From contig JAHYIO010000004.1 in NCBI GenBank assembly GCA_020543525.1, positions 992,001 to 1,056,000 on the forward strand: 64,000 nucleotides of DNA, written 5' to 3'. The translations under genes were made by a program, and so were the position numbers. The notes beneath the pieces are model-generated. The model searched no databases, had not been told where the DNA came from, and saw nothing but the letters and a program-made list of their open reading frames with translations. The stretch is from Coriolopsis trogii (Eukaryota > Basidiomycota > Agaricomycetes > Polyporales > Polyporaceae). Of the stretch, positions 15,683 through 23,082 are shown in pieces; position 1 is the first letter of the stretch; each line of letters opens with the position of its first letter.

Positions 15683-16487
15683 ATGCTCGGAAACGCTGTC
15701 GTCGCTATCACTATTGCCTTGGCGCTAGCCGCCCCTAGTACGTTCTTCAGGCTCTTCCTGTGCATTCGTGCAACGTCCGAGCTCACTGTTTCATAGAAGC
15801 CGTCAATGCCGAGGTTGTGTCCCTGTTCATCCCAGATACGCAGCCTGTCGCTCTCAGCGCAGACTTTGTGGGAACAGATGCAGCAGGGCATACCACTTGG
15901 CGATTCGGAGCGGGTACCGCCAGCGGCACGCTCAGCCCTCCAAAGGTCGCACTTCCCTCCGGTGCGTGCACCGTCTCTGCATGTGGTCAAAGGCTGACAT
16001 GTACATTGGACTGTCGACGGAAACAGCGACCATGGTGGTCAGCCCGACGGACATCCACGTCGTCGCAGACGTTCCGGACCTAGGAGCGACGCTGCACGAA
16101 GACTGCACGGTCAAAGACGGCGTCGCCGTCTGCACCGTCGTCATGTCCAGTGCGGGCGGGGCGACGACGATGGGAGAGACCACGCAGACGATGAGCGCGA
16201 GGGCGTTCGAGGTGCAGGTGACCGCTGTGCCTCCTGGATACTCGGCCGCCCCTAGTCCGACTCCGACTTCCGGGGCGTCGACTGTGTCTGGCCCGGCCCC
16301 GCTCGCGAATGGGGCAGGGGGAGGGGCCGCTCTTGGTTCAGGGCGTATTGCGTCGCCGTCGCCCATGAGTACCGGTGGTTCCTCGAGCGGTAGTGGTAGC
16401 GCGAATGGGGCGGCTGGCTTGAGGATGGGTTCGATGTTGGCCACGGGTCTGGGCGTAGTGGTCGTTCTGACGTCTTGCTTGCTTTGA
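15683..16487 (+). CDS. GPI-anchored secreted protein of unknown function (B1)
   Basis: 226 residues from exons 15683-15737, 15797-15961 and 16027-16487 (681 nt). Layout: signal peptide (MLGNAVVAITIALALAAP), a domain of about 130 residues with two Cys (DCTV, VCTV), then a Ser/Gly/Pro/Ala-rich linker and a C-terminal hydrophobic tail (MLATGLGVVVVLTSCLL) behind a small-residue stretch (SGSANGAAG), as expected for a GPI anchor. It therefore probably sits on the plasma membrane or cell wall. No enzymatic motif. The duplicate at 18.7-19.46 kb is broken. Confidence 0.85.
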
Positions 16488-18739: not shown

Positions 18740-19462
18740 AAAGTCTAGAAAGTCAATGCCGAGGTTGTATCGCGATTCCCTGTTCATTCCGGATACGCAA
18801 CGCTAGCCCGTCACAGCGCCGGCCTTCTGGGTACGGATGCAACAGTACAGATGCAGCAATGCGTACCAATTGGCGATTCGGAGCGGGTACCGCCAGCGAC
18901 ACGCTCAGTCCTCCAACGGTCGCGCTTCCTTCGAGAGCGTGCTTTGGACCGTCTGTTCATCCGCTCCGAAACTGATATGGACATTCATCCTCTGACACAA
19001 GCTACCGTGGTCGTCAGTCCGACAGACATACACATCCTCACGGGCGTTCCGGCCTGAGGAGCGACGTTGCACGACGACTGTACAGTCCAACAAGGCGTCA
19101 TCGTCTGCACCGTCGTCATGTCCAGTGCGGGCGGGGCGACGACGATGGGAGAGACCACGCAGACGATGAGCGCGAGGGCGTTCGAGGTGCAGGTGACCGC
19201 TGGGCCTCCTGGATATTCCGCTACGCCTAGTCCGAGTCCGACTTCTGGGGCGTCGACTGCATCTGGCCTGGCGCCGCTCGTGAATGGGGCAGGGGGAGGG
19301 GACGCTTTCGGTTCGGGGCTTACTGCGTCGTCGTCGCCCACGAGTAAAGGTGGTGCCTTGAGCGGTAGTGGTAGCGCGAATGGGGCGGCTGGCTTGAGGA
19401 TGGGTTCGATGTTGGCCACGGGTCTGGGCGTAGTGGTCGTTTCGATGTCTTGCTTGCTTTGA
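18740..19462 (+). pseudogene. broken copy of the GPI-anchored protein gene (B2)
   Basis: Aligns with B1 (15797-16487). The signal-peptide exon has no recognisable counterpart. The first domain exon is frameshifted (about 18755-18860 against 15800-15900). At about 19053, GTTCCGGACCTAGGAGCG of B1 has become GTTCCGGCCTGAGGAGCG: one base lost and an in-frame TGA created. The 3' part (about 19067-19462), including the linker and the GPI tail, remains open and is in places identical to B1. Confidence 0.8.
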
Positions 19463-19783
19463 CCGACTGTTTCTTATGGCGATTTGCGTTTTCGATTGTT
19501 CTGTCAGTACGGCGCGTCCTTATATTTGACATGTCCTTTCGATATGACAAGTCCGAGGGAATTGGTGATAAATCAAAGGGATGATAAGTAAGGTATCGAG
19601 TCATACGTACTGATATGGCGATTGGTCTTGCACACACGACATACTCCTGCAGGAGTCTGAGGACGAAGAGGGGGTAGTGGATAGAATCTACGTGAATGAG
19701 CAACATTGGGGGAGGCGAAGTCTCGGAAGACGCACGGACTTCTCGATGATCTGTAGGACACCGGGACCTAAATCGTGCGCATA

Positions 19784-21136
19784 CACCGGGGGCACCGATA
19801 CGTGGGACACAGTGTTCCATTTGTATCGCATGCTGACCTGTGGCAAAATAGGATAATTATGCAGTGTTATGTTACATTCATGTTATATAATTGTCCCTTT
19901 TGACGTGGAGTTGCCAGAGATTTCTCAATGAACTGATATTGTTCCATTGTAATCCCACACTCTATTTGGTAAGCGTGTGGCACTGTGTCCCATTTGAATT
20001 CCATGTAGGATGAGCCACTGATGGCTTCAAAATGGGACAAAGTGTCTCACTGCTGTGCTACTCTAAATCAAAAGTAGAAATAAGCAAGATGGAACAAAAA
20101 TGTTGCACCTTGTCTCATACTATCTCAATGAGTATCCTGCTGCTATTTTATATTATAGACAATATTCAAGTAATAGCAGTAAGAAATCAGAAAAACCTTT
20201 TGTACTACAGATTGTTTATTCCATGCTTTGTATTCTAGTAATCAGAATGAATTATATAAGAAGCAGATGTACAGATTGACTGCATATTGAGAGATAAAAT
20301 ATGGGAAATTACTTATAACCAGAATGCTTAGATTGTTTATACAGCAAGCATGCTTAGATTGTACATATAGCAAGCATGCTTAGATTGTTTATACAGCAAG
20401 CATGCTTATTTTGCATATTATAGCTAGTATGCTTAGTTTGCTTAGTACTGCATATATGCTTTCTTAGGTAAGAGAGTTTGCTTGATACAGCAGGTATAGT
20501 TTTATCAGTATAGTTAGTCTACTTAGAATATCTAGTATGCTTGGTGTTATTGAAATGGAGAGTTTGCTTAGTAGAACAGATATGCTTAGCTTTCTTGGTA
20601 CACTTGGTTTCCTTAGTTTTCTTAGTTTCCTTAGTACACTCAGTTTACTTGGTATGTCTATATTTATAACAGAGAGTTTGCTTAGTACAGGAGGTACACT
20701 TAGTTTCCTTAGTATAGTTAGTTTACTAAGTATAGCTTGTATGCTTAGTATAGCTACTGTACTGTGCTTGGTTTGTTTAGTATAGAGAGCTTGCTTAGTA
20801 CAGTAGATATGCTTAGCATGCTTAGCATAGTTAGTTTGCTTAATAAAGTGAACATGCTCAGTTTGCTTAGTAGATTAAGCATGCTTAGTATCTTTATTAT
20901 GATTACTTTGCATAGTAAAATTAGTACACTGGGTTTGGTTAGCATAGTTGGTTTGCTTAGTATGGCATGAATATTTAATTTGCTTGGTACAGCTAGTATG
21001 CTAGATTTGTATACCATAGCACGCATGCTTGTTTTGTTTAGTACAGCAGGTATACTGAGCATGCTTAGTATAGTTCATTTAGTTAGTATAGGTAATATAC
21101 TTAGTATGGTTGGTACATACATTAAGTGGGATTAGT
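19784..21136 (+). repeat. left arm of the palindrome
   Basis: Terminal inverted repeat, 1,353 bp. Order from the outside: CACCGGGGGC end; TGGGACACAGTG motif at 19803, its inverse CACTGTGTCCCA at 19981, and TGGGACAAAGTG at 20033; AT-rich segment; three 26-bp tandem copies at 20326-20403; then degenerate GCTTAGTA-type units to ATTAAGTGGGATTAGT at the inner edge. Confidence 0.9.
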
Positions 21137-21254
21137 TTATAGAGCAGAGGGGTGATTCAGTACGAGTATACCTGTCATTCTAAGCATACTAAGTATATCC
21201 CCTATAACAACTAAGTATAATAGCTATGCTTATCAGTTTTAGTATGCTTATTAG

Positions 21255-22607
21255 ACTAATCCCACTTAATGTATGTACCAACCATACTAAGTATATTACC
21301 TATACTAACTAAATGAACTATACTAAGCATGCTCAGTATACCTGCTGTACTAAACAAAACAAGCATGCGTGCTATGGTATACAAATCTAGCATACTAGCT
21401 GTACCAAGCAAATTAAATATTCATGCCATACTAAGCAAACCAACTATGCTAACCAAACCCAGTGTACTAATTTTACTATGCAAAGTAATCATAATAAAGA
21501 TACTAAGCATGCTTAATCTACTAAGCAAACTGAGCATGTTCACTTTATTAAGCAAACTAACTATGCTAAGCATGCTAAGCATATCTACTGTACTAAGCAA
21601 GCTCTCTATACTAAACAAACCAAGCACAGTACAGTAGCTATACTAAGCATACAAGCTATACTTAGTAAACTAACTATACTAAGGAAACTAAGTGTACCTC
21701 CTGTACTAAGCAAACTCTCTGTTATAAATATAGACATACCAAGTAAACTGAGTGTACTAAGGAAACTAAGAAAACTAAGGAAACCAAGTGTACCAAGAAA
21801 GCTAAGCATATCTGTTCTACTAAGCAAACTCTCCATTTCAATAACACCAAGCATACTAGATATTCTAAGTAGACTAACTATACTGATAAAACTATACCTG
21901 CTGTATCAAGCAAACTCTCTTACCTAAGAAAGCATATATGCAGTACTAAGCAAACTAAGCATACTAGCTATAATATGCAAAATAAGCATGCTTGCTGTAT
22001 AAACAATCTAAGCATGCTTGCTATATGTACAATCTAAGCATGCTTGCTGTATAAACAATCTAAGCATTCTGGTTATAAGTAATTTCCCATATTTTATCTC
22101 TCAATATGCAGTCAATCTGTACATCTGCTTCTTATATAATTCATTCTGATTACTAGAATACAAAGCATGGAATAAACAATCTGTAGTACAAAAGGTTTTT
22201 CTGATTTCTTACTGCTATTACTTGAATATTGTCTATAATATAAAATAGCAGCAGGATACTCATTGAGATAGTATGAGACAAGGTGCAACATTTTTGTTCC
22301 ATCTTGCTTATTTCTACTTTTGATTTAGAGTAGCACAGCAGTGAGACACTTTGTCCCATTTTGAAGCCATCAGTGGCTCATCCTACATGGAATTCAAATG
22401 GGACACAGTGCCACACGCTTACCAAATAGAGTGTGGGATTACAATGGAACAATATCAGTTCATTGAGAAATCTCTGGCAACTCCACGTCAAAAGGGACAA
22501 TTATATAACATGAATGTAACATAACACTGCATAATTATCCTATTTTGCCACAGGTCAGCATGCGATACAAATGGAACACTGTGTCCCACATATCGGTGCC
22601 CCCGGTG
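21255..22607 (-). repeat. right arm of the palindrome
   Basis: Reverse complement of the left arm. The only difference noticed is at 22590. The 26-bp tandem copies lie at 21988-22065 and the subterminal motifs at about 22347-22358, 22399-22410 and 22577-22588. Confidence 0.9.
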
Positions 22608-23082
22608 ATAATACCATTCTGTCTCGCGGTAGAGCTCTTCCACAGTTTGAATTTGCTTGGCGCGTGTACATTCAACAATCTTCTCTAGGTGGGAGTCTAC
22701 CATGATCGCCCCTGGCCCAAGGTTGCGAAGATGAGCCACGCCATATTTCTTCTTGGTCTGCTCGCGGCGATATGCATGGAGAGCCATACGGAATTCTCGG
22801 ACGCGGTCGTCGTCAGGATGGGCCATATCAAACAAACGTCAACCTATGAGCCTAAATCGTCCTCCGTCGCAGAGTGAGAGAGGAGCAAGGCAATAGATGG
22901 TAGCTTGGAGTAGTAGACTGAGTTCAAGTTGGGAGGCTGTGACCCATCGCGACCGTGACAGTGACCGACGCGTCGAGGCGCCTTTCGTGGGACGACGTCG
23001 GCCGCTGTAATGCCGTCGTGTCTGAACTCAACTACAGCTGCCAACTCCACTCACGAACTGGACGACCTGAACGACTGAAGCC

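Follow-up and report, generated by a model that had tools for sequence, protein, structure and literature searches.

The analysed window, a stretch of 64,000 nt from Coriolopsis trogii, contains a 2,824-bp palindrome at positions 19784-22607, which consists of two 1,353-bp arms and a 118-bp core. Taken jointly, the findings described below make it likely that this palindrome is a non-autonomous foldback transposon that is moved in trans by an EnSpm/CACTA-type enzyme and whose arms correct each other. The sequences of this one assembly indicate that the arms of the element stay matched while its copies drift apart.

Architecture of the palindrome

The left arm extends over 19784..21136 on the forward strand (1,353 bp), followed by the core at 21137..21254 (118 bp, without self-complementarity) and by the right arm at 21255..22607 on the reverse strand, which is the left arm inverted with one mismatch. 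This sole difference between the arms falls on arm site 18, a CpG position, where a C at 19801 is opposed by an A at 22590 (T when read along the arm). A repeat finder that allowed mismatches placed the boundaries slightly differently, with arms of 1,363 nt and a spacer of 98 nt. With the sub-repeats of the element set aside, one other inverted pair of at least 60 bp was found in the window, measuring 79 bp at 76% (blastn, E <=1e-5).

The composition of the arms sets them apart from the window, as the arm has a G+C content of 35% and 59 of the 64 one-kb bins of the window lie within 50-65%. Three of the five bins off this range overlap the palindrome. The observed/expected ratio of CpG is 0.18 in the arm at 19784-21136 versus 1.05 in the remaining window, and this depletion is likely a trace of cytosine methylation and deamination. 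An earlier sequence-only reading of this DNA had described two near-identical 1,353-bp arms with a 118-bp core and had called the arms AT-rich, both of which the present analysis bears out, with a single mismatch between the arms and a G+C content well below that of a window mostly at 50-65%.

From the outside inwards, each arm is composed of the CACCGGGGGCACCGATA terminus, the TGGGACACAGTG repeats, 26-bp tandem repeats and 9/18/27-bp repeats. The left terminus CACCGGGGGCACCGATA comprises 17 bases (19784..19800, forward strand), which recur inverted as the right terminus (22591..22607, reverse strand). The subterminal motif TGGGACACAGTG is located at 19803..19814 (forward), in the opposite orientation at 19981..19992 (reverse) and, with one mismatch, as TGGGACAAAGTG at 20033..20044 (forward), each of these being mirrored in the right arm. 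Counted at up to 3 mismatches, TGGGACACAGTG gave 7 matches in both orientations versus 0.52 expected from arm shuffles, although the 7 matches represent four distinct spots because the motif is partly self-complementary. Further inwards, 4.9 copies of the 26-bp tandem repeat occupy 20324..20452 (forward; mirror 21939-22067), and degenerate 9/18/27-bp repeats fill about 700 bp of the inner arm at 20402..21111 (forward; mirror 21280-21989).

Long inverted arms with internal tandem repeats, little or no middle, and dispersed copies with target-site duplications are the anatomical features of foldback elements, and all of them were found here. In addition, the Pfam scan of five arm ORFs gave no match, and the Rfam scan of the element returned zero families at threshold. 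The designation as "foldback-type" in the sequence-only reading is thereby upheld. Its remark that arms without a transposase are "unlike everything around them" did not hold, since none of the ten window ORFs scanned against Pfam (taken from 58 ORFs of at least 150 aa or from shorter ones) is a transposase; hits to ordinary housekeeping or Kelch families were obtained for three of them, and no match for the remaining seven.

An edge ORF of 115 aa, partly made up of element letters, had no match in the homologue search or in Pfam. Disruption of a gene by the insertion was considered, since the empty site is spanned by an open minus-strand frame of 107 codons, and is not claimed. Two ORFs at window positions 15768-16487 and 19067-19462 encode similar proteins with common stretches such as GETTQTMSARAFEVQVTA and without Pfam match, and are apparently a duplicated gene.

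Copies and insertion sites

The genome searched comprises 38.8 Mb in 39 contigs. Three full copies of equal length (2,824 bp) were identified, namely the copy of the window (W; C4:1011784-1014607), one at C20:555701-558524 and one at C4:1709275-1712098. A shortened relative of 1,187 bp, including two nested inserts, is located at C6:1698418-1699604, and all four insertions end in CACCGGGGGC..GCCCCCGGTG. Queries consisting of the complete arm, of its first 197 bases, or of its inner portion gave no match beyond these four elements, the match counts of such arm searches being lower bounds.

The termini are abutted by a 3-bp direct repeat in four out of four insertions, and each repeat is different (ATA, TCA, TGC, and AGA). 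If all bases are taken as equally frequent and the boundaries as fixed, chance would produce four such repeats with a probability of (1/64)^4. In the window, the ATA duplications are located at 19781..19783 and 22608..22610. No similarity was detected between the flanks of the insertions (2 kb per side, 4 kb for C6; blastn, E <=1e-3).

On the evidence of the assembled loci, the element is a dispersed non-autonomous transposon and not an assembly fold, and its identification as a mobile foldback element is made with great confidence. Dispersed copies with identical ends had been predicted by the sequence-only reading, and three full copies (that of the window included) and one short copy were recovered, all with CACCGGGGGC. 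The outcome that it had named as speaking against it, no further copy and no junction support, was not what the assembly gave, as three loci are present with unique flanks on both sides.

Exact matches to CACCGGGGGCAC occurred 13 times genome-wide, compared to 5 for the reversed control, and 8 of the 13 are the ends of the four elements. The five extra matches were attributed to chance: three of them were compared, and of the following 48 bases 8, 10, and 11, respectively, agree with the element; the arm searches gave no match at any of the five places.

After subtraction of its inserts, about 368 bp of the C6 relative remain (1,187 - 543 - 276), and its sequence suggests a MITE-like form with outer arm parts around a small loop. 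One of the nested inserts is a 273-bp element (L014:4783-5055) with the ends CACGACGGGCAA..TTGCCCGTCGTG (CAC..GTG) and the 3-bp duplication TGG. It belongs to a MITE-like family with 84 matching pieces genome-wide (both strands of one copy counted), many of them near-full-length. The other insert (L014:4145-4687) measures 543 bp and is part of a dispersed repeat with 48 matching pieces. Two piece pairs of this repeat are located on C4, 4-5 kb apart and in the same orientation, which is LTR-like, and the 543-bp insert may be a solo LTR.

Superfamily and candidate mover

Subterminal repeats are a trait of CACTA elements, and the element carries such repeats in both orientations. Its termini read CAC..GTG and are accompanied by a 3-bp target-site duplication in four out of four elements, respectively, while the five bases of classical CACTA are replaced by CACCG in all of them. 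EnSpm families of rust fungi are described with CAC..GTG termini and 3-bp duplications, consistent with EnSpm (PMC12730594). Since these fungal families have CAC..GTG only (PMC12730594) and animal CACTA relatives have CCC termini (PMC1636069), the five CACTA bases were treated as non-defining outside plants; the survey of CACTA relatives left fungal termini uncharacterised (PMC1636069). The second CAC..GTG family with a 3-bp duplication, found inside the C6 relative, was also counted for the EnSpm/CACTA reading.

The EnSpm-type transposase domain PF02992 was assigned to 12 places in the genome, of which nine exceeded the Pfam cut-off alone, one did so with its neighbours, and two remained below. 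Four of the 12 matches are located within about 20 kb of a contig end, at C2:18074 and C11:11869 (start) and at C8:1133505 and C5:1898707 (end). From the ends, the duplications, the subterminal repeats and the presence of PF02992 in the genome we infer a putative mobilisation in trans by an EnSpm/CACTA-type enzyme, which is considered probable. Judging from the anatomy, a transposase made elsewhere would recognise the CACCGGGGGC ends together with the subterminal TGGGACACAGTG repeats, and the element would be cut and pasted with a 3-bp duplication upon insertion.

Searches of the genome with the arm, the terminus and the subterminal sequence found no transposase-bearing relative with the ends of the element, and no link to the element ends was found among the compared places of the 12 PF02992 matches. 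A search for the 17-base terminus that allowed up to 3 mismatches yielded 114 matches versus 64 for the reversed control; 8 of these belong to the four elements, and the remainder is still above the control. Terminus matches were compared by eye with the 12 PF02992 places, and among the matches listed two, at C5:845254 and C8:1132215, were located some 1.3 kb ahead of a PF02992 match. The C5 site is positioned inside a frame that is open along the entire 401-bp stretch (133 aa) and looks coding, not terminal, and its own 17 bases gave 102 matches versus 104 for the control. Both sites were dropped as leads to an autonomous partner, given this open frame at C5 and the finding that the listed places included no opposing end in the vicinity of the C5 or the C8 site. 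When the subterminal 17-mer was searched with up to 3 mismatches allowed, 99 matches were obtained versus 88 for the control; the four elements account for 8 of the 99, and elsewhere nothing exceeded chance.

Plavaka elements are abundant in this genome with 86 matching pieces, and Plavaka families have been reconstructed from Agaricomycotina (PMC12730594). Their termini are described as TGT..ACA or CATCA..TGATG (PMC12730594), whereas the element reads CACCG..CGGTG. In three 7-kb stretches at three Plavaka loci, which may not contain Plavaka ends, a scan for exact 9-base inverted ends that start with CA or TGT and bear duplications detected no CACCGGGG-like end. Plavaka was rejected as the mover on account of its differently described ends and this result.

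Foldback elements are mostly tied to Mutator, with Galileo placed in the P superfamily, and the arm anatomy of the present element is that of foldback elements, which would suit a Mutator-type or other foldback element. However, target-site duplications measure about 9 bp in Mutator and about 8 bp in hAT and P and consist of TA in Tc1/mariner, and the duplications observed here are 3 bp long in all four insertions. PIF/Harbinger elements do produce 3-bp duplications, mostly at T-A rich TWA-like sites, but ATA, TCA, TGC, and AGA do not fit such targets. Membership in Mutator or in one of these other groups is accordingly regarded as unlikely, and assignment to the EnSpm/CACTA type is preferred.

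Correction between the arms

Across the three full copies, with six arms in all, 23 arm sites are variable. At 22 of these, the left and right arms of each element share the same base and the variation is between elements, while site 18 alone varies within an element. Rows 1354, 1357, 1358, and 1359 were left out of the 23, as they fall into the core when the arms are defined as 1,353 bp long and have the same left-right difference in all three copies. The arms of W differ from those of C20 at 2-3 sites, and those of either differ from the copy at C4:1709275 at 21-22 of 1,353 sites. In contrast, left-right differences within a copy amount to 1, 1, and 0, the arms at C4:1709275 being identical. 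Differences between arms (2 per 3 x 1,353) are therefore about 30-fold rarer than those between distant copies (21 per 1,353). The unpaired core shows 2 differences in 118 sites between W and the copy at C4:1709275, similar to the 1.6% found for the arms. If the arms changed independently of each other, two sets of 21 changes among 1,353 sites would share 0.33 sites on average, and they shared 5 at most in 20,000 simulations. At arm site 1294 (21077, partner 21314), a base private to W is present on both arms, and at sites 192 and 1294 W and C20 keep separate bases, each on both arms.

As the arms are matched at 0-1 differences though the copies diverge by 1.6%, the data call for correction between the arms and not for recency alone, and correction in place is very likely. 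Selection for matched arms is not required by any observation here. The sequence-only reading had offered a very recent insertion or active homogenisation of the arms; homogenisation is favoured by the mirrored bases at 22 of 23 sites, while recency as a full account is at odds with the 1.6% between copies. The arms could pair across the short core as a hairpin or cruciform, and one arm would then be the template for the other through template switching, break repair from the sister arm, or mismatch repair in the hairpin stem. The outcome of this step is seen in the assembly, its mechanism being conjectural. Occasional exchange between the arms would perhaps invert the interior.

Correction might also take place only upon movement, when repair at transposition or excision rebuilds the arms and all later changes stay unmatched. 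Under this view, the small number of unmatched changes, at site 18 in two copies, could postdate the last insertion, and three copies cannot tell such correction apart from correction in place. Were correction part of the element's own cycle, a hairpin intermediate at movement or excision repair would rebuild both arms from one, each move would reset a perfect palindrome, and the element would spread as a self-copying mirror image, which is an improbable course. To our knowledge, no hairpin step that copies an arm has been described for CACTA elements. Moreover, correction in place is documented in other inverted repeats (PMC8604942, PMC1803023) and would suffice, so that correction restricted to movement appears quite doubtful.

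The loci could be real and the likeness of their arms a product of assembly or polishing, considering that the arms exceed short-read length and that no unmatched site is more than 51 bp away from unique flank, in which reads can be anchored. If reads were misassigned between arms, they would be expected to be misassigned between copies as well. W and C20 are as alike as the arms, yet they have separate bases at sites 192 and 1294 on both arms, which argues against a consensus artefact and leaves it with a small chance. Plain recency, in which the arms match through a very recent origin or insertion without any correction, is extremely improbable, because it agrees with the mere 2-3 arm sites between W and C20 but accounts neither for the copy at C4:1709275, 21-22 sites from both and with identical arms of its own, nor for the mirrored bases at 22 sites.

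With correction in place as the preferred reading, site 18 stands out as uncorrected in two of the three full copies. W has C on the left and T on the right arm, C20 has the reverse, and the third copy has C on both. The pattern could represent a single inherited change, with the interior later flipped against the ends by arm exchange, or two changes at the same CpG. The second explanation stands, since CpG sites change fast here: across all arms 9 CpG positions occur, and 5 of them belong to the 23 variable sites. All unmatched sites are located within the outer 51 bp, namely site 18 in W and C20 and the three mismatched sites 14, 44, and 51 in the C6 relative, which was compared over the outer 133 bp of its arms only. 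Correction may be weaker towards the ends, the outer sites may be young CpG changes, as CpGs concentrate there, or only the ends may have been resolved by reads anchored in the flanks.

A second inverted duplication is located 159 bp past the third copy, with 752-bp arms that differ by 2 mismatches and are about 700 bp apart (C4:1712258-1713009 and 1713718-1714469, equal to L013:4984-5735 and L013:6444 to L080:371). Weaker relatives of its arm (71-83%) form a cluster at C4:1.51-1.63 Mb, with one on C3. Given the near-identical arms of this second duplication, matched arms are perhaps not special to the transposon.

Comparison with known systems

The element resembles fungal EnSpm/CACTA elements in its CAC..GTG ends and 3-bp duplications and differs from those described by its lack of a transposase, by consisting almost entirely of inverted arms, and by reading CACCG instead of CACTA (PMC12730594). 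Long, internally repetitive inverted arms are shared with Galileo of Drosophila, a member of the P superfamily (PMC3573991). Galileo arms are reported as 98-100% identical within a copy, for which its authors invoke recombination and conversion (PMC3573991). Unlike the element, Galileo has duplications of 7-8 bp (PMC4168063), belongs to another superfamily, and has known coding copies. Tetris and DAIBAM of Drosophila virilis offer a similar case, Tetris being described as a non-autonomous foldback element with arms that contain tandem repeats, three structurally complete copies, a short partner with common ends, and no autonomous source found (PMC4079207). They differ in their animal host and in their larger arm repeats of about 220 bp, and their superfamily was left open by the authors (PMC4079207).

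Joint evolution of arms, as seen in the element, is also reported for inverted repeats of yeast, Caenorhabditis, and the primate X (PMC8604942, PMC1803023, PMC8981503). In short inverted repeats of yeast, template switching homogenises the arms and inverts the spacer (PMC8604942), gene conversion has been proposed for the maintained inverted repeats of Caenorhabditis (PMC1803023), and palindromes of mammalian sex chromosomes, including those of the primate X, are stated to undergo frequent conversion (PMC8981503). These cases are host loci, whereas the element represents several copies of one mobile element.

Among the matches listed from the open-licence PMC literature, whose titles and abstract openings were covered, none was a foldback element in fungi or in CACTA, which speaks only weakly for the absence of such a report. 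Arm correction is already known from other inverted repeats, and what is new is the foldback anatomy on EnSpm-like ends in a fungus together with the site-by-site evidence of arm correction. The three full copies with their mirrored differences provide a natural readout of arm-to-arm correction at defined sites. Chromosome breakage is known to arise from long palindromes, and the persistence of the element in the face of this risk is a testable question. The view that the foldback shape evolves repeatedly from different transposons, which is cited in PMC4079207, gains support from a fungal foldback element with EnSpm-like ends.
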